Made by a program: the position numbers and the translations under genes. From NCBI GenBank assembly GCA_037481655.1, contig JBBFLF010000002.1, forward strand, positions 127,856 to 191,855: DNA of 64,000 nt. The letters are read 5' to 3'. Of the stretch, positions 6,014 through 17,394 are shown one piece after another; the stretch's first letter is position 1, and every line of letters starts with the position of its first letter. Below the pieces are notes generated by a model, which was not told where the DNA came from, did no database searches, and worked only from the letters and a program-made list of their open reading frames with translations. This DNA is from Desulfobaccales bacterium. GTDB taxonomy: Bacteria; Desulfobacterota; Desulfobaccia; Desulfobaccales; 0-14-0-80-60-11.

Positions 6014-6355
6014 GAATCTCTCCTAATCTCTCCCATACCCTAAAACTATCTCAAGAGAAAGTCTTATGCAGGGAAGATAGGGGTGTGAGTTTCCCCGACC
6101 TTTCTCCACCTTCCCTTCACCCCTGTCGGGGCTGAGGGTGTGGGGGTGTGAGTGAAGGTAGCGGTCACCGATCCCTAGTCCCATCTTCCTCGGAATTCAT
6201 CAAAATACTCAAAATTTTTCTAACAAAATTAAAAATTTTTCTATTGTCCTGGATGTGCTAAGATGGGGGCACGATTGAGGCCCTCGGAAGAGACCCGGGC
6301 TTTCCCCCTCCTTTCGAGTTCTCCTGCCACCCTCCACCCGCCATGAGGCTTGGCC
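6014..6355. promoter_or_regulatory. Divergent intergenic region, AT-rich centre
   Basis: This 342-base gap lies between the divergently transcribed HAD and glycosyltransferase genes. It has an AT-rich patch at about 6199-6243, unusual for this genome, followed by TAAGAT at 6259-6264, which could be a -10 element for the rightward gene, although no good -35 is correctly spaced. The left half has a GC-rich imperfect palindrome around 6105-6170 resembling the repeats seen elsewhere in the window. No gene is visible. Confidence 0.4.
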
Positions 6356-8539
6356 ATGCGGCTCCTGTGGGTCTCCGACAGTCCCACCACCCCCTCCGGG
6401 TTCGGGGGGGTGACCCGGGAAGTGTGCCGCCGGCTGGCCCGCCGGGGCCACCGCCTGGAAATCCTGGGCTGGCAGGCATACGGCACCACCTCCTACTGGA
6501 AGTCCATCCCCGTCCATCCCCTCCGCCGGGACCGCTTCGGCAGCGACGTGCTCCTGGGGTATCTCCACCGGCTGCAGCCCCATTTCCTCATCACCCTGGC
6601 GGACATCTGGTGGATGAGCTTCCTCACCGAGCCGCCGGTGCAGCGCTACCTGGACCTCTCCGGCACCCGCTGGGTCCATTATTACCCGGTGGACGGGGCC
6701 GACCCGGAGGGCCGTCTGCCCGCCGGCTGGGTGAAGGTGCTTTCCGCCGCCGACCTGCCGGTGGCCATGAGCCGCTTCGGCATGGAGGTCTCCGCCGCCT
6801 GCGGCATTAACGCCGCCTATATCCCCCACGGGGTGGACACCGAGCTCTTCCGGCCCCCGCCGGACAAGGCCCGGGCCAAGGCCCGCCTGGGCTATGAGGG
6901 CCGCTTTGTGGTGCTCTCCGACGCCCGCAATCAGCCCCGCAAGCTCCTGCCCCGCCTGCTGGACATCTTCGCCGCCTTCGCCCATGACAAACCCGACGTT
7001 CTCCTGCACCTGCACGCCGACCCGGAGGACGACGCCGCCCAGAGCGACCTCTACCGCTACGACCTCCGGCAGGATATCGCCGCCCTGGGGCTGACGGGCA
7101 AGGTGCGCTTCACCCCGGGCTTCCGCATGCGGGCCTCGGGGGGCATCCCCCTGGAGCGGCTGGCGGAGATCTACGCCGCCAGCGACGTGCACCTCCTCAC
7201 CTCCTGGGGGGAGGGCTTTGGGCTCCCCAACCTCCAGGCCGCCAGCGCCGGGGTGGTGCCCCTGGCCCTGGCCTACACCGCCAGCCGGGAGCTGGTGGCC
7301 GGACATGGCTTTGCCATCCCGGCGGAGTGCGGGGTGGTGGATGAATTCGGGCTGGTCAGGGGCCTGATGGACCGGGAGGCGGCGGTGGCGGCCTTGAACG
7401 CCCTGTACGCCGACCCGGGACTCCTGGCCGAGAAGAGCCGCCAATCCCGGGAGTTCGCCCTGGGGTATACCTGGGACCGCATCGCCGCGGAGTGGGAGCG
7501 GGTCCTCAGTCAGGCCCCGCCCCGGCGCTCCCCGGGACGGGCCCGCCTCATCACCTGGCGGGCAGGGGAAGAGCCGCCGCCCTTGGAGGATTTGCCCCCG
7601 GAGGTCAAGGGCGCGGTGGCCGAGACCCTGGCTCCGCTGCCGCCGGGGGTGCAGGTGAGCCTGAGGCTGGCGGAGCGCCGGGCCGGCGAGGTGAGCACCC
7701 AGATCCGTCAGGAGGCCTTCCGGCGGGGGGATGAGCTGAGCATCCCGGTCAGGCTGCCGCCCTTTTTTCCCGGCGCCCCCCGGGCCACCATCGGTTATGT
7801 GCTGGTAAGCCCGCCGGAGCTGGCCCTGGCGGTGCTCTTGAAGCGCCTCTTCCCGGGGCTGGCGGTGGCCATTCCCCGGCCCGGGGGCGATCCCGCAAAC
7901 CCGGTAAGGCTCTCCCCGGAGGAGCTTCTCCCCGCTCTGGCGCATATGGTCCTGGCCATCGATTTTTCCGGCACCGGCGCCCCGCAGCTGGACCTGGCCT
8001 GCGCCGCCCTGGGGGTGCCTTACGTGGGGCAAAGCGCTCTGTGGCCTGAAATTCCCCTGCCGCCCCTGCACCAGGTGCGTTTGCTCTTCACCGACCAGGG
8101 CTTCTCCGAATGGCGCCGTCAGGACGCCTGGCAGCGGGCTTTGGAAACCGTGGGCGAAGAGACCCTGGAGCACCTGCGGCAGCTGGCTCTCCAAGGCCAG
8201 CCCCGGCGCACGGCCGCCTCTGTCCCCGCCGGGCCGGAGCCGGAGCTCTTTCTGGTGCGGCCCCAGGACGGCCAGACCGGGCCGGAGGTGACCCGGCGCC
8301 TGCAGGAATACGTGGCCCGCCACGGAGGCCTAATGCTCATGGCCACCGCCGGCGGCAGCTTCATCGTCGGCATGCCCCCGGGGGGGAAAGAGGTGCTCCA
8401 GGCCTGTCCGCTTCTAAGTTTCGTGGGCGGGGTGCAACTGGACGCCCAGGGCAAGGCAGCTAAGGCCCTGAAGAAGCACTTTGCCCTCAACGCCGTGCGC
8501 CAGCTCCTGGCCCGGGAGCGGGGCCAGCCGGCGGCCTGA
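6356..8539 (+). CDS. GT4-family-like glycosyltransferase with an extra C-terminal module
   Basis: The protein has 727 residues from ATG 6356, which has GAGG seven bases upstream; an in-frame TTG two codons earlier lacks that spacing. Residues 1-385 form a GT-B glycosyltransferase of the GT4 type: an N-terminal MRLLWVSDSPTTPSGFGGV with the Gly-rich donor-side loop, IPHGVDTELF in the linker, and SWGEGFGLPNLQAASAG in the C-terminal Rossmann domain. The EX7E motif is altered: Glu286 is kept but the second Glu is Gln294. Residues 400-727 form a second module that I do not recognise; parts such as LDLACAALGVPYVGQSALWP resemble a GT-B half-domain. There is no signal peptide, so it is probably cytoplasmic. 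It lies directly upstream of the unusual operon at 8735-15249, in the same direction, and may glycosylate one of its products. Confidence 0.85.
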   Translation: MRLLWVSDSPTTPSGFGGVTREVCRRLARRGHRLEILGWQAYGTTSYWKSIPVHPLRRDRFGSDVLLGYLHRLQPHFLITLADIWWMSFLTEPPVQRYLDLSGTRWVHYYPVDGADPEGRLPAGWVKVLSAADLPVAMSRFGMEVSAACGINAAYIPHGVDTELFRPPPDKARAKARLGYEGRFVVLSDARNQPRKLLPRLLDIFAAFAHDKPDVLLHLHADPEDDAAQSDLYRYDLRQDIAALGLTGKVRFTPGFRMRASGGIPLERLAEIYAASDVHLLTSWGEGFGLPNLQAASAGVVPLALAYTASRELVAGHGFAIPAECGVVDEFGLVRGLMDREAAVAALNALYADPGLLAEKSRQSREFALGYTWDRIAAEWERVLSQAPPRRSPGRARLITWRAGEEPPPLEDLPPEVKGAVAETLAPLPPGVQVSLRLAERRAGEVSTQIRQEAFRRGDELSIPVRLPPFFPGAPRATIGYVLVSPPELALAVLLKRLFPGLAVAIPRPGGDPANPVRLSPEELLPALAHMVLAIDFSGTGAPQLDLACAALGVPYVGQSALWPEIPLPPLHQVRLLFTDQGFSEWRRQDAWQRALETVGEETLEHLRQLALQGQPRRTAASVPAGPEPELFLVRPQDGQTGPEVTRRLQEYVARHGGLMLMATAGGSFIVGMPPGGKEVLQACPLLSFVGGVQLDAQGKAAKALKKHFALNAVRQLLARERGQPAA

Positions 8540-8734: not shown

Positions 8735-9364
8735 ATGAGAAGTGTCGGCAGAGACCTGTTGGACGTGCCCTTTCCCGAGATGGTGATGAACCTCGCCTTC
8801 GCCATCGCCAAGGGTCAGCTGGCCCTGGACCGCACCTCGCTGTCCACCGCCCGCATGCTGGCCCGGGAAAAAGTGAAGCTCATCCAGGAAATCCAGGAGA
8901 TAATTGAGCCGGATTTCCGCACCGTGGAGGTGACGGTGCAGGATCAGGACGGCAATCCCCGGAGAGAGACCATCATCGTCACCGGCGCCCGGGTAAAATT
9001 CGACAGCATGGACCCGGAGGACATGACCCTCCTGCAGGCGGGGCTCTCCCCCACTTTCTACCAGTTCACCGAATCCATCATTGAAGTGAAGATGTCCATC
9101 TCCCAGAAGACCACCAGCAGCAGCGAATTCGAGGTGGGGGCCTCCCTGGAGGCCAGCGCCTCCTGGGGCTGGGGCTCCGCCTCCTTCGCCTCCCACGTGA
9201 ATTACAAAACGGCCAACACCTACTCGTATTCGGCGGAGGGCTCCAGCCTGCTCCGCACCACCTTGAAGCCGGTGCCGCCGCCCAGCCGTCTGACGCCCCG
9301 GGTGCTCACCATCAACTGCCTGCCCATGCTGCAGGGGCAGCCGGCCGCCGTCAGCGTCAGTTAA
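8735..9364 (+). CDS. Uncharacterised protein, founder of a local paralogous family (member A)
   Basis: I do not recognise this 209-residue protein. The start has a strong AAGGAGG four bases upstream. It is clearly paralogous to the next gene: both share GRDLLD-PF near the N-terminus, a Gln/Leu-rich helix ending in ALD--SL, EIIEP--RTVEV, VTGARV, QAGL-PTFYQFTE, a beta strand IEV--SI, a tyrosine-rich TAN-YSY stretch and a C-terminal LR--(M/L)(R/K)PVPPPSRL. A Ser-rich loop (QKTTSSSEFEVGASLEASAS) sits at about residues 126-145. There is no signal peptide and no membrane helix. The alternating hydrophobic pattern suggests mainly beta structure after an N-terminal helix. It is the first gene of a closely spaced operon running at least to 15249. 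Confidence 0.8.
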   Translation: MRSVGRDLLDVPFPEMVMNLAFAIAKGQLALDRTSLSTARMLAREKVKLIQEIQEIIEPDFRTVEVTVQDQDGNPRRETIIVTGARVKFDSMDPEDMTLLQAGLSPTFYQFTESIIEVKMSISQKTTSSSEFEVGASLEASASWGWGSASFASHVNYKTANTYSYSAEGSSLLRTTLKPVPPPSRLTPRVLTINCLPMLQGQPAAVSVS

Positions 9365-9385
9365 ACGGGACGGAAAGGAGCTTTT

Positions 9386-9994
9386 ATGGCCATCGGCCGC
9401 GATCTCTTGGATCTGCCCTTTGCCGAACTGGTGCGCAACCTGGCCGTGGCCATTGCCGACGGCCAGGCGGCCTTGGATCATAACTCCCTGGAGACCATGA
9501 AGACCCTGGTGAACACCGAGGTGGAGGTGCTCACCGACGTCACCGAGATCATCGAGCCGGAGGTGCGCACCGTGGAGGTGATGGTGCCCGACGGCGCCGG
9601 CGGCACCAGAAAAGAGAAGGTGCCGGTGACCGGCGCCCGGGTGACCGCCACCGGCGCCCCGCCGGTGAAGATGAGCATGTTCCAGGCGGGTTTGCTGCCC
9701 ACATTTTACCAATTCACCGAGGCCACCATCGAGGTGCGCCTCTCCATCACCATGCGGGAGGAGCGGGTGACGGAGACCCGGGGCCGAGGCGCCGGTTTCC
9801 TGGGACTGGGCCGCAGCCGGGCCCACGCCGGCACGGTGGATTACCGCACCGCCAACAAATACAGCTATCAGGCGCAAGGGGCCAGCGTGCTGAGGGCGGT
9901 GATGCGGCCGGTGCCGCCACCCTCCCGCCTGGAGCCGGCGGTGACCACGGTGAACACCTTCACCAGCCCGCCCACCGTCACCCGCACGCCGTAA
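9386..9994 (+). CDS. Uncharacterised protein, paralogous family member B
   Basis: This 202-residue product is a close paralogue of the preceding gene, aligning along its whole length: MAIGRDLLDLPFAELVRNLA at the start, EVRTVEVMVPDGAGG in the middle, QAGLLPTFYQFTEATIEVRL, and ASVLRAVMRPVPPPSRLEP at the end. The Ser-rich loop of member A is replaced by an Arg/Gly-rich loop (residues about 132-150). It starts 21 bases after member A, behind an AAAGGAG site. There is no signal peptide. Function is unknown. The duplication suggests a structural component needed in related variants, which is inference. Confidence 0.8.
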   Translation: MAIGRDLLDLPFAELVRNLAVAIADGQAALDHNSLETMKTLVNTEVEVLTDVTEIIEPEVRTVEVMVPDGAGGTRKEKVPVTGARVTATGAPPVKMSMFQAGLLPTFYQFTEATIEVRLSITMREERVTETRGRGAGFLGLGRSRAHAGTVDYRTANKYSYQAQGASVLRAVMRPVPPPSRLEPAVTTVNTFTSPPTVTRTP

Positions 9995-10010
9995 ATCCGG
10001 GAGGGACCAT

Positions 10011-10658
10011 ATGCCCAACGGAACTCCCGCCCAGCAGATTGCGGATCTCATCTCCACGCCCCTGGAGGAGCTCCTGGTGGCCCTGGGCTCGGGGATCGGC
10101 CGGGCCCAGGCCGAGCTGGACCGCCACTCCATCGAGATCCAGAAACTCATCCTGGAGGACCCGGTGCTTTCCCAGTACGGCCTGGAGGCCACCTGGTACC
10201 AGATCCCCAGAACCGAGCTGGAACTCAAGATCGCCGTGGCCCTGGAGCACCCCTCCCCCAAGGCGGAGCCCCCCCGGGTGGGCGGGGTGATCAGGAAACC
10301 TCTGCCCCGGCTGTATGCCCAGCCGGTGAATGCCCGCTATACCAACCAGTTCTCCTATGACATCCAGGCGGCCAGCACCGTGAAGCTCGCCGTGGTGGCG
10401 GTACCGCCCCCGGGGGTGGCCGCGGCCACCCCGGCCCTGACGGAGGAGGCGGCCCTGGCCGCGGCCCTGCCGTATCTGTTCAAAGATGCCCAGGGGAAGC
10501 CCGAGCCCCGGGTGACGGTGAACTTCAACGGCGGCGCCCGGACCTGGTATATCGTGCAGACCGCGGAAAAAGACGGGGCCGTGACGTTGCGGGCCCTGGT
10601 GAAAGTGGACGATCTGACGGCCCAGGTGCTGGAGCGCCGGGGCGGGCCGGGGGGTTGA
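10011..10658 (+). CDS. Uncharacterised protein, divergent family member C
   Basis: The 215-residue protein is a diverged third member of the same family. TPLEELLVALGSGIGRAQAE matches the N-terminal helix of members A and B, YGLEATWYQIPRTELELKI matches their PTFYQFTE-x-IEV block, and NQFSYDIQAASTVKLAVVAV plus PPPG matches their tyrosine-rich and Pro-rich C-terminal block. It then continues for about 75 residues that A and B lack, including NFNGGARTWYIVQTAEKDGA and a strand-rich end. It starts 16 bases after member B with a GGGAGGGA site. No signal peptide is seen. The extra C-terminal part may be an interaction domain (inference). Confidence 0.75.
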   Translation: MPNGTPAQQIADLISTPLEELLVALGSGIGRAQAELDRHSIEIQKLILEDPVLSQYGLEATWYQIPRTELELKIAVALEHPSPKAEPPRVGGVIRKPLPRLYAQPVNARYTNQFSYDIQAASTVKLAVVAVPPPGVAAATPALTEEAALAAALPYLFKDAQGKPEPRVTVNFNGGARTWYIVQTAEKDGAVTLRALVKVDDLTAQVLERRGGPGG

Positions 10659-10661
10659 GCC

Positions 10662-11441
10662 ATGCCTCCCGAAGAACTGGAACGCGTCAAACTGGAGCTG
10701 GCCCAGGTCCGCACCCAGCTGAACCTGGTGGAGCAGTCCCGCCGGGAACTGACCTTCAAGCTGGAGGCGGCCACCAAGGACCTGCAGGAGACCCGCCAGG
10801 CCCTGGCCCGCACCGAAGCCCTCAACGCCGAGCTTCGGCAGCGCACGGAGCTGGCCCAGGGCCGGGTGCGGGAGCTGGAGACGGCCCTGGCCAAAGCCCA
10901 GGAGGAGCTGCGCCATAAAGAGGCGGAGCTGGGGAGCCTGAGGACCATCAAGGAGGTGGCGGAGGTCTGGAAGCGGGAACGGGACCAGGCCCTCCAGGAC
11001 CTGGCCCAAATCAAAGCGGATGTGGAGCGGCAGGTCTCCCAGGCGGTGAAGGCCGCCCTGGAGCAGGTCACCCGGGAGCATGAGGCCGCCCGGCAGACCT
11101 GGCAGGCGGAGCGCCTGAAACTGACAGAAGAGATCGCCCGGCTGCAGGACCGGCTGGCGGAGCGGGGGGTGGTGGGCCACGTCTTTCCCACCGACCTGGC
11201 CGGCAAGCTGGCCGGGGTGCTGGAAGGCTTGGCGGAGGGACGGGCGGCGCCGGGGAAGCAATACACCGCCGCCCTCACCTCCCTGGAGGTGGAGGCCCGG
11301 GGGGTGCTGGAGGCCCCCCGCACCGGGGAGGCGGAGCCCCGCTTTGTCACCCCGGAGGCGGGGCGGGTGGAGCCCGGAGCGCTCTCCACCCTGCGCATGA
11401 CCTTCCGCCTGCTCCCCACCGTGCGCACCGAAGAGGAGTGA
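10662..11441 (+). CDS. Coiled-coil protein with a family-like C-terminal domain (member D)
   Basis: This 259-residue protein begins three bases after member C. Residues 1 to about 165 are a long uninterrupted coiled coil rich in Glu, Leu, Arg and Gln. The remaining part appears to be a reduced version of the domain in the three genes before it: FPTDLAGKLAGVLEGLAEG resembles the N-terminal helix, AALTSLEVEARGVL the central strand, and GALSTLRMTFRLLPTV the C-terminal block. This relation was judged by eye and is weaker than that among A, B and C. No signal peptide is present. The layout suggests a scaffold or stalk attached to the domain shared with A-C. Confidence 0.7.
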   Translation: MPPEELERVKLELAQVRTQLNLVEQSRRELTFKLEAATKDLQETRQALARTEALNAELRQRTELAQGRVRELETALAKAQEELRHKEAELGSLRTIKEVAEVWKRERDQALQDLAQIKADVERQVSQAVKAALEQVTREHEAARQTWQAERLKLTEEIARLQDRLAERGVVGHVFPTDLAGKLAGVLEGLAEGRAAPGKQYTAALTSLEVEARGVLEAPRTGEAEPRFVTPEAGRVEPGALSTLRMTFRLLPTVRTEEE

Positions 11442-11442
11442 C

Positions 11443-12243
11443 GTGGCTGAGCTGGACTTCTACCGCCGCCAGGCCACCTTGGCCCAGGTGCGGGCCGAGG
11501 TGGCGGAAACCTTGGCCCAGAGCCTGAGGCGGGAGCGGGATGCCGCGGTAGCCGACCGGGCGGGCCTGATGCGGGAAAACGCCCGCCTCAAAGCGCTGGT
11601 GGAGAAGCTCGCCGGCCAGCTCGGGGAGGTGCGGGAGAAGCTCAAGGAGGCGGTGGCCCGGCGCCGGGGGGTGCCCGTGGAGGAGCTCCTCCAGGCACTC
11701 CTTGACGCCTTGGAGGCCGGCTCCCGGGGCCTCACGGGCCGGGTCATCGCCGAGGCCCATCTGGACCTTAAGGCCGCCTTGCAGGTGGAGGAGAAAACCG
11801 CCGGGCTGCAGGTGGCCGCGGCGGGCCTTTTTCCCCCCCAGAGCCTGAGCACCCTCTCGTTGACCGTGCGTCCCACCCCCCCGGGGCTGTGGGAGGAGGG
11901 CCGCAGGCGCGGCCTGGCGGCAATCATGGAGGCTGCCCAGGCCCTGCAGGAGGCCCTCAGCGGGAGTTTTCCGTTAGACGCGGCAAAGGGGGCGGCTACG
12001 GCCCTGGCGCAGATCTCGGCCTTTCTGGCGGCGCCGCCTCAGGCCCCGGAGGAGGTGGCGGGGGCCTTGAAGCCGGTGGTGGACAGCCTCAGCTCTTTGG
12101 CCGGGCGGCTGCCCACACTGACGCCCGCAGCCCGGGAACTGGCCGGTCGGGTGGCCGACCTGCCTGCAGCGCCCGCAGAAGAGCATCTGGCGGCGCTGGC
12201 CACGGCCCTGGCGGCGGTGGCCCGGGAGCTTGAGGGGGGCTGA
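11443..12243 (+). CDS. Coiled-coil and helical protein with a family-like domain (member E)
   Basis: The gene starts with GTG one base after the stop of member D, within the overlapping context TGACGTGG, which implies coupled translation. The 266-residue product has a coiled coil at residues 1-60, then VPVEELLQALLDALEAG, AHLDLKAALQVEEK and SLSTLSLTVRPTPPG. In order these resemble the helix, strand and C-terminal block of the upstream proteins. The last 110 residues are Ala/Leu-rich amphipathic helices without charge clustering. No signal peptide is visible. It is probably part of the same assembly as the four preceding genes; the function is unknown. Confidence 0.7.
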   Translation: MAELDFYRRQATLAQVRAEVAETLAQSLRRERDAAVADRAGLMRENARLKALVEKLAGQLGEVREKLKEAVARRRGVPVEELLQALLDALEAGSRGLTGRVIAEAHLDLKAALQVEEKTAGLQVAAAGLFPPQSLSTLSLTVRPTPPGLWEEGRRRGLAAIMEAAQALQEALSGSFPLDAAKGAATALAQISAFLAAPPQAPEEVAGALKPVVDSLSSLAGRLPTLTPAARELAGRVADLPAAPAEEHLAALATALAAVARELEGG

Positions 12244-12244
12244 G

Positions 12245-14989
12245 ATGGCGGTGCGCATCCGGGCCGAGCGTCCCACCGTGGACCCCACCGGGCCGCCCCC
12301 GGCCTTCACCATCACCACGGACCGTCAGTTCTGCGAGGTGGAGGTCACCAGCGACCCGGTGCTTTTCAACGGCGCCCTGGCGACCCGGCGCCGACCGGAG
12401 AATTTCTCCACCTCCCGGGATGAAGGCCCCATCACGGTGGAGCGGGGCCGGGCCCGCTATCGGCTGGACGAAGCCGCCTGGCGGGCCCTGCGGCGTTACC
12501 CTTACCTTTACTACCGGGCCATTGCCTACGATGGCCCCCTGCCCGACCGCCAGAGGATCGCCGCCAACGGCCACCTGACCGGACGCCGACGGGAGGAGAG
12601 CCTGGCGGCCCACGATTTCCGGCAGGCCCCGGCCATCTACCTGGCCCCGCCGGGCACCCGCCTGCCGCCGGTGCGCCGCCGCCTCTCCGGGAACGTGAAG
12701 TGGCTCCGGGTGGACGGCAACCGCCTGGTGAACGAGGACGGCGATCCGGTGGTGCTCCGGGGCGTGAACCTTTCCGGCCTGGAATACACCGACCGGGGGG
12801 CTCTGGACCCCACCGGGGTGAGGCGAGCCACCTCCCGGGAGGGGGCAGGCATCACCCGGGAGCTCATCCGGGAAATCGTGGGCCATTGGCGGGCCAATAT
12901 CATCCGCCTGCCCCTCAATCAGGAGTGGGCCCTCACCCGGGAGGATTACCTGGCCAACCTGGACCGCATCATTGAGTGGGCCGCCGCCGAAGGCGCCTAT
13001 ACCCTCCTGGATCTGCAGTGGTTCGACACCCACCGGGAATTCGGTCATCTGCGGGACGGCTCGGTGAACCGGGTGCCCCCCATGCCGGAGGAGAACTCCG
13101 TGCGCCTTTGGCGGCTGCTGGCCAGCCGCTATCGGCGGGAGCCGGCGGTGCTCTTTGATATTTTCAATGAGCCCCACGTGCCCCTGGCCGACGATCAGGC
13201 CGCGGTGATCCCCCAGCTGGCCACGGAAAGGGAGTGGGTGGACCACTGGCACACCTGGGTCCGGCGCCTGGAGCAGGTGATCCATCGGGAGCACGGCCGG
13301 GCCCTCCTTTTTGTCAGCGGCTGGGATTGGGCCCTGAACCTGCGCCATTTTCCGGTGCCCCTGCCCGGGGGCCGCACCCTCCCCAACGCGGTGTATGCCG
13401 CCCACGTCTATCACCACGCCACCCCCGGGCGCAGCACCGCCACCCGGGCCGATTGGGATTACTGGTTCGGGTTTTCCCGCCTCCGGGACGCCCATCCCAT
13501 TTTCATCACCGAGTGGGGCGGCGACGCGGCCCAGCTCCGGTGGGGCATCGAACTGGAGCAGTATCTCCGGGACCTGCACCGCTTCCGTAACGGGATGTGG
13601 CCGGGCCTGGCGGGCTGGACCGCCTGGTCCTGGGCCGATCGGCCGCTCCTGGTGGAGCGGGGCACCGGGATCCGGACCCTCCCCACTGGCACCCAGGTGA
13701 GCTGGCGCACCTACGTCATGGACGGCGCCCACTACCAGCCCACCGAGTTCGGGGAGCTGGTGCGGGCGGCCCTGAACACCATGCCTGCCTTTCCCCGGCT
13801 GGCCTTCGCCCTGGACCGGCCCCCAGGCGGCCGCGGCCGCTATTTCATTGCCACTTCCCCGGCCCGGCGGGAGGATTTCCTGGCGGTGCAGGGCCATGAT
13901 TTCACCCCCGGCACCCGCCTCGAATTGTGGACCCCGGCCGTCCGGGTAACCCTCACGCCCACGGCGACCCTGCCCCACCTTCTTTTGGTGGACCGGCTGC
14001 CGGCCACGGTGCCCCTGGGGGAGGTGCTGTGCCGGGTGGTGCGGCCGGACGGGGTGCAAAGTGAACCGGTAACCCTCCGGGTGGAAGCGGCTCCCGGGGA
14101 GTTTACCGAGATTTATCCCGGGGATGAAAGCAAGCCCGCCGAACGCCGGTTTACCATTCTGTTTCTGGCCAATCCGGTGGTGGAGACCCGGCAGGGGGCC
14201 TTCCAGGCCGAGTCCCTGCTCAGTTGCCGGGAGCGCTTCCACCGGGCGGTGGCCGCGGCTTTGCGCTCCCTCTTCGGCGGCCGGGAGACCCTGCTCCATC
14301 CCTATGCCCTGGATATCCGGCTGGCGGCCCGCTTTGCCCCGGACACGGTGGAGGCGGCCCATGCCCTGTGCCGGCAGCATGCCGGCGGCATTATGGAGCC
14401 GGACCGGGGGCGGATCCGGGCTTATCTGGCGGCGGAGGGGCTTTTGGCGGACGTCTGCCTGGTGTTCTACCATTCCTCCGGGTACCGTCGCTGCTCGGCT
14501 GCTCACACTGTGGATGACGAGGCCTCAGATGGCCGCCTCTTCCGTTACAACGGGGCCACGCACCATCACCGGCGCCGGCCCCGGGAACCGGGGGTGGCGA
14601 CCCTGCATGCGCCCGTGGATTTTATTCTGGATCCGTTGCATGAATTTATTCATGCCTTCTCGGATGAAAACCACGGGGCCGTGGATGATCTGTATGACGA
14701 CCTGCCTTTGGATACCTTTATCGTGAACCGCAAACGCCGGGATCGGGCCGGCGGCCCCATCCCCCGGCGGTTTGCCGAGTATGACGGGCAGAGCTACGCC
14801 AGCGACCTGCGCCGGGACGGCCTGGGGTATCCGGCCGCCTGGCGCAGCTATCATCCGGAGCTCATCAACCCGGCGCAGCCCAACTTGATGGACAACTATT
14901 TCCGGGCTCGTTTTCCTCCATGGTGCCGCTTGGACCGGCTGACCCTGAAGTTTCTCCGGGACCGGCTGGAATGGAAGCTGGGACGATGA
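12245..14989 (+). CDS. GH5-family glycosidase fused to an HEXXH metallopeptidase-like domain
   Basis: The protein has 914 residues from ATG 12245, which has GAGGGGGG just upstream. Residues 1-150 are an unassigned N-terminal region. Residues 151-475 form a GH5 (cellulase-type) TIM barrel: LRVDGNRLVNEDGDPVVLRG opens it, the acid/base Glu309 is in FDIFNEPH, and the nucleophile Glu423 is in FITEWGG, so the enzyme is probably active on a beta-glycan. Residues 480-640 look beta-rich. Residues 640-914 contain LDPLHEFIHAFSDENHG, a zinc-binding HEXXH (His799-His803) with acidic residues soon after, distantly like IgA-peptidase M64 enzymes. No signal peptide can be seen, which is odd for an enzyme acting on polysaccharide. 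It is in the same operon as the coiled-coil proteins and overlaps the next gene by ATGA. Confidence 0.85.
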   Translation: MAVRIRAERPTVDPTGPPPAFTITTDRQFCEVEVTSDPVLFNGALATRRRPENFSTSRDEGPITVERGRARYRLDEAAWRALRRYPYLYYRAIAYDGPLPDRQRIAANGHLTGRRREESLAAHDFRQAPAIYLAPPGTRLPPVRRRLSGNVKWLRVDGNRLVNEDGDPVVLRGVNLSGLEYTDRGALDPTGVRRATSREGAGITRELIREIVGHWRANIIRLPLNQEWALTREDYLANLDRIIEWAAAEGAYTLLDLQWFDTHREFGHLRDGSVNRVPPMPEENSVRLWRLLASRYRREPAVLFDIFNEPHVPLADDQAAVIPQLATEREWVDHWHTWVRRLEQVIHREHGRALLFVSGWDWALNLRHFPVPLPGGRTLPNAVYAAHVYHHATPGRSTATRADWDYWFGFSRLRDAHPIFITEWGGDAAQLRWGIELEQYLRDLHRFRNGMWPGLAGWTAWSWADRPLLVERGTGIRTLPTGTQVSWRTYVMDGAHYQPTEFGELVRAALNTMPAFPRLAFALDRPPGGRGRYFIATSPARREDFLAVQGHDFTPGTRLELWTPAVRVTLTPTATLPHLLLVDRLPATVPLGEVLCRVVRPDGVQSEPVTLRVEAAPGEFTEIYPGDESKPAERRFTILFLANPVVETRQGAFQAESLLSCRERFHRAVAAALRSLFGGRETLLHPYALDIRLAARFAPDTVEAAHALCRQHAGGIMEPDRGRIRAYLAAEGLLADVCLVFYHSSGYRRCSAAHTVDDEASDGRLFRYNGATHHHRRRPREPGVATLHAPVDFILDPLHEFIHAFSDENHGAVDDLYDDLPLDTFIVNRKRRDRAGGPIPRRFAEYDGQSYASDLRRDGLGYPAAWRSYHPELINPAQPNLMDNYFRARFPPWCRLDRLTLKFLRDRLEWKLGR

Positions 14990-15249: not shown

Positions 15250-15483
15250 GCGGGGGATGCCGGGTTGACCGCGGGGAGACGGGGGTCAGGGGTTGCAAGG
15301 AGAGGCCAGGATCCCGGGGCCAAGAAAAGATAGAAATTTTTCTTGATTTTCTTAAACGTGAATACACCATGGAAGGCAGAGGGACTTTGCCCATGAGGGT
15401 CCCCCCAAGCCTTGAAATGTTCTCCCCTTCCAGGGGCTTCTAACCGGCGGCAGAGCCGCTGGCAGACGCCAAGGGACCGCTGC
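15250..15483. other. Intergenic gap with an AT-rich patch
   Basis: The gap holds an AT-rich segment at about 15324-15366 (AAGATAGAAATTTTTCTTGA) that could carry a promoter for the next gene, although I cannot place a confident -35/-10 pair. No gene is visible. Confidence 0.3.
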
Positions 15484-17394
15484 ATGAGCCGCACCGACAG
15501 AGCCCAGGAGCGCCGCCGGGCAGAACGGCAGGCGGAGCGGACCCGCCGCCGGGAAGAGGAACGCCGGGCGGAGGCGGCGGCCCGGGCCCGGGAGGAGGCC
15601 AGGGAGCGGGAGCGCCAGGAGGCCCGCCGGGCTGAGGCTCTCCGGGAAGCCCGGGAACGGGAGGAGACGGAGCGGCGCCGCCGGGAGCAGGAGGAGGCCC
15701 GCCGGCGGCGCCTCCGGCAGGAACGCCGGCAGGAAAGACGGCAGGCGGCCAAGGAGGAGGAGGCTCGGCAGGACAGGCGGGAAGCCCGGCGTACCGCTAC
15801 CCCCTTGGCCACCCGGCGGGCGGGGGAGCGCAAAAGGCAGGCGCAACCGCCGAAACCGGTTAAGCCTGCGGCCAAAATCCGGGTGCGGCAGCCGCAGCCT
15901 CCCAGGGCTGAAGAGGCCCAAGTCCGACGACCAAAGGCGCGGGGGCCGGAAAAAGAGAGGCCGCCACGGACGTTGGCGGCCAAACCAGGCGCTGACTGGC
16001 GTCAGGAAAAGCAGCCGGCCCCCCGGGAACCGGACAAAAAGCGGCCGCAGCCGGAGCGCCGCCGCGCGGCTGCGCCCCGCCGCCAGGTGGTTCGCGCCCT
16101 TCGCAACGACTACCCGAAGCAAGAGAAACCCCGGGTCAAGGCCGCCAGCCCGGCCGCGCCCCGGAAAAGCCCCGCCAAAGACAAAGAGGGCCCCAAGGCC
16201 CCTCAGGTGCTGCCGCGCTCCCGCCCCGGTCGCCCTCGCCTGGGTTCCGCATCCGGGAAAACCCCTTTACGTCGGCCCACGTTGGTGGCGCCGGTCCGGA
16301 AGCGGGTGCCGGTCCTGCCCGCCGACAATCCCCACCCCCGGCCCGGGGCGGCCCGCCTGCCCAGCGGCCTCCTCTCCGCCCACCTCCCCTGGCTGCGGGT
16401 GGAGGGGCGCTTTGTGGTGGATGAACGGGACCGGGTGCGGATTCTTCGGGGTTTTACCCTTCGGGGCCTGGAGCGGGCCACCCCCCAGGGCAGCGCCTTT
16501 CCGGTGCCCTTGAGCCCCCAGGAGGCGGCGTTGCTCCGCTCCTGGGGGGCCACCGCGGTGCGTCTCCCTCTGGCCCAGGATCTGGCCCTGGAAGGCCGGG
16601 GCGAGGCCGACGGCGAGGATTATCTGCAAGCCGTGGATGCCGCCATCGCGGCCGCCGCGGCCGCGGGGCTGTACACCATCCTCCAGCTCTCCCTTCTCTC
16701 CAGCGTGTTGCCCACGCACCGGGGGCCCGCAGGCGAAGTGTACGACCCGCCCCTGCCGGACCCGGGCTCGGTGGATTTCTGGGGGATTCTGGCCCGACGT
16801 TACGGCGATGAGCCGGCGGTCCTCTTTCAGCTCTTCGGCCCGCCCCACGACCCCGGGCCGGGGGATGCCACCGCGGTCCTGCTTTCCCGGGTCACCTGGC
16901 CGGTGTGGCGCAATCATCTTTTGGCCATGCTGGGGGAGCTGCGCCGGGAGCACCCCCGGGCCGTGGCCCTGGTGCCGGGATTGGGGAGCGATCTTTCCGG
17001 CTTTCCGCTCCCCTTTTCCGACGGCACCCCGGTGCCCCAGCTGATCTACGGGCTGGAGCTCCCCGCCGGGGGCGCGGCCGCCGCTTTAGGGGAGCTTGTG
17101 CGGCTCAGCCGGCGGGTGCCGGTGGCAGCCCTGGGAGTCACCGCCGGGCCGCTGGAGGGCCGCCAGGTCCAGGCGCTGGGCCCCCGGCTGGCCCAGGCCG
17201 GCATCCACTGGCTGGCCGCGGCTTGGACGGACGGCCCCGGAGCCTTGGTCACCTGCCAGCGGGGCCGCCTCATCCCCACGCCTCTGGGCCGGGCCTTTCA
17301 GGCGGCCCTGGCCGTGCCCATGCCGGCGGAGTTTCATCTGGAGCCCGCCGCCCGCCGGCAGTCATTCCGCCTCCTCCCCGGCCGGGGGGAGTAA
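15484..17394 (+). CDS. Coiled-coil protein with a catalytically dead GH5-like domain
   Basis: From ATG 15484 the product has 636 residues. Residues 1-105 are almost entirely Arg, Glu, Ala and Gln, a highly charged single helix or coiled coil. Residues 106-300 are a Pro/Lys/Arg-rich disordered linker. Residues 300-615 are clearly related to the GH5 domain two genes upstream: LRVEGRFVVDERDRVRILRG, RRYGDEPAVLFQLFGPPHDP and a final TIM-barrel strand. Both catalytic positions are lost. The NEP motif reads GPP (Glu replaced by Pro453), and the strand that carries the nucleophile reads VAALGVTAG with Gly551 at the Glu position. It should therefore bind rather than cleave glycan. No signal peptide is seen. 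The extreme basic charge of the linker could bind nucleic acid or acidic polymer. Confidence 0.8.
   Translation: MSRTDRAQERRRAERQAERTRRREEERRAEAAARAREEARERERQEARRAEALREAREREETERRRREQEEARRRRLRQERRQERRQAAKEEEARQDRREARRTATPLATRRAGERKRQAQPPKPVKPAAKIRVRQPQPPRAEEAQVRRPKARGPEKERPPRTLAAKPGADWRQEKQPAPREPDKKRPQPERRRAAAPRRQVVRALRNDYPKQEKPRVKAASPAAPRKSPAKDKEGPKAPQVLPRSRPGRPRLGSASGKTPLRRPTLVAPVRKRVPVLPADNPHPRPGAARLPSGLLSAHLPWLRVEGRFVVDERDRVRILRGFTLRGLERATPQGSAFPVPLSPQEAALLRSWGATAVRLPLAQDLALEGRGEADGEDYLQAVDAAIAAAAAAGLYTILQLSLLSSVLPTHRGPAGEVYDPPLPDPGSVDFWGILARRYGDEPAVLFQLFGPPHDPGPGDATAVLLSRVTWPVWRNHLLAMLGELRREHPRAVALVPGLGSDLSGFPLPFSDGTPVPQLIYGLELPAGGAAAALGELVRLSRRVPVAALGVTAGPLEGRQVQALGPRLAQAGIHWLAAAWTDGPGALVTCQRGRLIPTPLGRAFQAALAVPMPAEFHLEPAARRQSFRLLPGRGE

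Follow-up and report, generated by a model that had tools for sequence, protein, structure and literature searches.

A recurrent gene cassette of bacteria and archaea built from variants of one small domain, two of them with coiled coils

The five-gene set and its shared domain

The window analyzed here, a stretch of 64,000 nucleotides from contig JBBFLF010000002.1 of a Desulfobaccales bacterium, contains five adjacent genes (8735-12243) that encode variants of one small domain. We refer to A-, B- and C-type genes as "M," to D- and E-type genes as "S" and to a small third component as "G." The genes and their neighbors are:

6350..8539, forward strand: GT4-type glycosyltransferase with G at the C-terminus (PF00534/PF13692, phrog_2170)
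8735..9364, forward strand: A, M-type, full form; helix at residues 13-44, strands at 53-69, 75-91, 114-130 and 161-177
9386..9994, forward strand: B, M-type, full form; 51% identical to A, in its own B clade
10011..10658, forward strand: C, M-type, short form without the first hairpin; profile E 3.1e-12, C/short clade 99%
10662..11441, forward strand: D, coiled coil and C-terminal S domain (residues 175-253); leave-window-out profile, heptads
11443..12243, forward strand: E, coiled coil, S domain (about residues 77-147) and helical C-terminus; leave-window-out profile, heptads
12245..14989, forward strand: GH5 protein in which NEP and TEWGG are intact, with an HExxH motif in its C-terminal extension; PF00150, 1.6e-19
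15412..17394, forward strand: charged Arg/Glu-rich N-terminus and degenerate GH5; PF00150, 5.2e-7

An earlier note on this DNA had placed five ORFs at 8735-12243, with spacing that falls from 21 to 1 base. Both points were confirmed, the gaps between A and E being 21, 16, 3 and 1 bases. Shine-Dalgarno-like sequences lie upstream of A (aaggagg), B (aaaggagc), C (ggaggga) and E (gaggag), and we judge the five ORFs to be real because of their position, ribosome-binding sequences and tight spacing. The proteins lack signal peptides, as had been remarked: none of the five has a hydrophobic stretch long enough for a signal peptide or a membrane helix, and no catalytic motif or membrane signal was noticed in them. 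Searches of Pfam, PHROGs and NCBIfam gave no significant match for A, B or C.

A and B are the clear paralogs that they had been taken for (49-51% identity, E 7e-54). C, described as divergent, has the same domain: with A as query against its own genome, C was recovered at 28% identity and E 9e-4, and a profile built from A, B and two Sphaerotilus homologs, without C, found it at E 3.1e-12 among 5,875 ORFs. The proposal that D and E have a shortened form of the domain together with coiled coils also held. A profile of 55 shortened domains, from which the window and its two congeners were omitted, detected both proteins among 1,199 ORFs, E at 2.4e-9 (residues 47-147) and D at 9e-8 (residues 175-253). 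Coiled-coil heptads occur in residues 1-60 of D (p 0.009) and 5-75 of E (p 0.008).

Direct hhalign comparison of whole M with whole S gave only 16%, so the homology of the five genes rests on a chain via the C type and E-like S proteins. The C type aligned with E-like S at 95% (E 3e-8, 82 columns; reversed control 0.1%) and E-like S with the other S at 97%; the reversed controls for the C-type/S comparisons were all below 0.3%. When the C type and S were ranked reciprocally by profile, nearly all of the top outside matches of each belonged to the other family. A hairpin of ~50 residues between the helix and the aromatic block is present in A and B and missing from C, D and E, which explains the shortened form; in A and B this first hairpin is an insertion. 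These profile comparisons show A to E to be homologs with one shared domain, two of them with coiled coils. The C-terminal domain of C (~65 aa) is present also in E-like proteins elsewhere (P0004).

Distribution of the cassette and its partners

A scan of bacterial and archaeal genomes returned 217 relatives, and 78 loci were kept. The bacterial hosts span at least 10 phyla, among them Chloroflexota, Pseudomonadota, Cyanobacteriota, Chlorobiota, Gemmatimonadota, Acidobacteriota, Actinomycetota, Myxococcota, Bacillota, Fibrobacterota and Thermodesulfobacteriota; the archaeal hosts are Methanosarcinales and Halobacteria. Two or more M genes occur in 74 of 80 gene sets, S in 65 and G, detected by a G profile both as genes and as fusions, in 59; the 80 sets include the window and the near-identical L010, several gaps are contig ends, and the loci were collected via the M family, making these counts of the neighbors of M and not a census. 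The sets are nearly always on a single strand and in constant order, G-M-M(-M)-S in bacteria and M-M(-M)-S-G in archaea. The earlier note had suggested looking for the gene set in other genomes, and the M-S(-G) set indeed recurs in both domains of life.

In one archaeal phylum the family was found in 8 of 100 genomes, each with two or three copies and never one. In its own genome the family occurs at this site only, and among 59 related genomes only in two congeners. A Sphaerotilus plasmid carries a compact version composed of five hypothetical genes. In the Amphritea loci (L042-L052) and in L081 the set is expanded to five or six M genes.

In the tree, clades of A (96%), B (96%) and C/short forms (99%) each span several phyla; the "C type" labels, assigned by regex, are wrong for some rows, and the 17-row split itself has 99% support. 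In another branch (Halobacteria, Chlorobi, Chloroflexi and others) the first and second M genes form two clades, with 96 and 99% support. Since A, B and C remain separate across phyla, the paralogs are old and were transferred together. The simplest reading of the tree is that the duplication is old and that the cassette was afterwards passed on as one unit.

In the window, G is the C-terminal ~100 aa of the glycosyltransferase (8228-8536), and in most other cassettes it is a free-standing gene. It has no Pfam match. The GH5 gene at 12245-14989 starts 1 base after E, with a TTG at 12230 as an alternative start. The C-terminal extension of its protein has HEFIH (HExxH) and, further downstream, LYDD, reminiscent of a zinc metallopeptidase; HEFIH corresponds to HELIH in L010 and HEFVH in L011. 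The GH5-like protein at 15412-17394 has GPP in place of NEP and lacks the catalytic E, based on motif alignment. In general, most cassette-adjacent GH5-like proteins no longer have the NEP acid/base motif, and the catalytic glutamate is often gone too, making this a recurrent pseudo-glycosidase (window 15412-17394; L011, L013, L014, L018, L019, L022, L023, L029 and L034). GT4 enzymes have an EX7E motif, usually with E at the second position. The glycosyltransferase at 6350-8539 reads EGFGLPNLQ (EGFGLPTLQ in L023), with Q where the second E is expected, and to judge from this motif it may be degenerate too. Archaeal S proteins have PASTA repeats and, in several cases, helix-hairpin-helix domains as well, and in Amphritea PASTA occurs on one S and one M protein. 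The partners therefore vary by lineage, and M, S and usually G are constant.

Remote relatives and predicted structure

To call the domain undescribed, as the earlier note did, was too strong: A, B and C are remote relatives of DUF2589, and D and E of Trypco2, in both cases below the Pfam cut-offs. M aligned with DUF2589 (PF11655) at 94% (hhalign E 1e-7, 146 columns; reversed 0.8%), and at 85% with another alignment (A5). As a specificity control, 12 unrelated families scored <0.2% against M and at most 1.1% overall. At E<=1, Pfam did not match A, B or C to DUF2589, and their own genome has no DUF2589 match. One M relative has a Pfam DUF2589 match at E 2.7e-4, and a Pseudanabaena M protein overlaps such a match at E 7e-4. 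DUF2589 genes also lie in tandem with paralog-like genes, and a run of short genes, AF0414-AF0417, has been described (PMC3949148). However, the PTFYQF and PVPPP blocks are not found in DUF2589, and an S or G gene was recognized in 0 of 5 DUF2589 loci inspected. Two DUF2589 neighbors (L104 6967-7647 and L105 6127-6804) have a similar layout of a helix, a PDVEIDVP strand and a C-terminal strand, and are probably further divergent members of the superfamily, judging by this layout.

S aligned with Trypco2 (PF19631; 16 sequences) at 86% (hhalign E 4.9e-6, 73 columns; reversed 0.2%). This fell to 13-42% when only four Trypco2 sequences were compared with S or its subsets, and to 9 and 35% when the 16-sequence alignment was compared with two S subsets singly. 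D and E have no Trypco2 match in Pfam, their own genome has none, and the best of 51 S domains reached E 0.0025. The S domain has the same helix-strand-strand-strand order as Trypco2, but its fusion partners are coiled coils, PASTA or HhH. The name Trypco2 was given to a domain beside trypsin-like peptidases in conflict systems (PMC7159879), and the domain has been termed an adapter (PMC10907252). The alignments suggest that this cassette links DUF2589 and Trypco2, two poorly understood families.

AlphaFold models A (pLDDT 82) as one helix of 32 residues followed by four strands, each 17 residues long, with a Ser/Gly-rich tip between the last two strands that has a pLDDT below 50. The model of the D domain (11154-11438) is weak (pLDDT 68) and has a helix and strands in the same element order as A; the pTM values of the A and D domain models are middling (0.54 and 0.46). 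A sequence search of the PDB matched no solved structure, and Foldseek, with query models of limited confidence, gave best PDB E values of 3.5 for A and 1.5 for the D domain. Thus, neither approach assigned a known PDB fold.

We found no entry describing the cassette core proteins in Pfam, NCBIfam, PADLOC, PHROG or the PDB, and no description of the cassette as a set in the databases or literature searched. The novelty lies in the whole cassette; its individual domains do have named, if remote, relatives.

What the cassette may encode

The earlier note regarded the five genes as components of one multi-protein assembly. Conservation of the set across two domains of life and the position-specific paralog clades agree with this, and the complex itself we infer. 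The five-gene unit was drawn too small, as G (here the C-terminal part of 6350-8539) belongs to it too and so, in this lineage, do the downstream GH5-like proteins.

On balance, we lean toward a single hetero-oligomeric scaffold or adaptor, soluble and probably cytoplasmic, whose subunits the five genes would encode, with its physical assembly, location, arrangement and role all deduced from the patterns above. A, B and C would take up separate, pseudo-equivalent positions, each contributing a long helix at the N-terminus together with a long antiparallel hairpin. D and E would join through their shortened copy of the domain, their coiled coils extending or bridging the assembly. G, here fused to the glycosyltransferase, would be a constant partner, perhaps a cap or an assembly chaperone, and lineage-specific partners would be attached, the glycosyltransferase and GH5-like proteins here and PASTA and helix-hairpin-helix domains in archaea. 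An old duplication with transfer as a unit agrees with subunits that each have a place of their own in one assembly. The PASTA and HhH domains on S (and M) proteins, which are binding modules and not enzymes, also count toward an assembly, and the remote homology of S to Trypco2, described as an adaptor, toward an adaptor role. Against an assembly, tandem paralogs could act separately or redundantly, and the constant partner G is not accounted for.

A different role, which we consider unlikely, is a conflict or stress-signaling module in which S and M, as adaptors of the Trypco2 kind, would recruit a protease or other effector or hold it back, with G acting as an inhibitor-like prodomain. Besides the S-Trypco2 link, this draws on the trypsin-like or serine protease that adjoins most of the Trypco2 genes fetched, on the patchy distribution among related genomes and on G itself, which has a GG...L...V pattern similar to that of Inhibitor_I9/subtilisin prodomains. 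The eight weak PDB matches of the G profile include two such prodomains, 1scj (E 0.11) and 9rk9 (E 1.1), but these are not significant and the cassette has no subtilisin gene. A protease gene is not constant in the neighbor clusters, nor is a MoxR, vWA, VMAP or trypsin gene a constant partner as in Trypco2/VMAP/MoxR-vWA systems; vWA-like genes occur in only a few cassette loci. The PADLOC matches of cassette proteins are to coiled coils and PASTA, none of them relevant.

Less likely still is a function in polysaccharide or envelope metabolism, with the cassette as a scaffold for glycosyltransferase and GH5 proteins. These proteins flank the cassette here, and a glycosyltransferase or GH5-like protein recurs in Anaerolinea, an acidobacterium and beta- and alphaproteobacteria, but in archaea and in most of the remaining bacteria the cassette occurs without either. 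Moreover, although the downstream proteins match the GH5 cellulase family (PF00150), most neighborhood copies lack the catalytic residues.

It is very improbable that M proteins insert into membranes as beta-hairpins via the Ser/Gly-rich tip between strands 3 and 4. The low-confidence tip of A does alternate polar and hydrophobic residues (p<0.001), but whole-hairpin alternation is significant in only 9% of the family, by a test that is blunt because strand registers shift at turns, and the matches to pore formers in Foldseek do not rise above noise; a membrane pore is thus unsupported family-wide. Lastly, phage- or tail-like structural proteins of a mobile element, called to mind by the tandem paralogs, the coiled coils and one unnamed viral model (Foldseek probability 0.97, but E 0.024), are already largely refuted and have almost no likelihood left, as relatives were confirmed in 0 of 2.9 million viral contigs, 0 of 50,697 phage genomes and 1 of 72,556 plasmids, and there is no relevant PHROG match.

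Returning to the scaffold or adaptor, we give slightly less than even credence to the broader proposal that it is a new hetero-oligomeric machine, in which at least three paralogs of a fold without a solved match and coiled-coil versions of it would be conserved across bacteria and archaea as a transferable cassette, with DUF2589 and Trypco2 as branches of the same superfamily. The ordered paralog set leads to testable predictions, namely a fixed stoichiometry and one complex, and the homology links would place DUF2589 and the Trypco2 adaptor in a common frame.

Some cassette-associated proteins have further features. PASTA proteins at three loci (L065 1353-3089, L058 9105-10193 and L042 6000-7280) are without an evident signal peptide, and in some archaea PASTA is fused to helix-hairpin-helix/DUF4332 domains. 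The Amphritea loci encode an additional protein of 715 aa, which lacks a Pfam match and whose C-terminal segments are hydrophobic.
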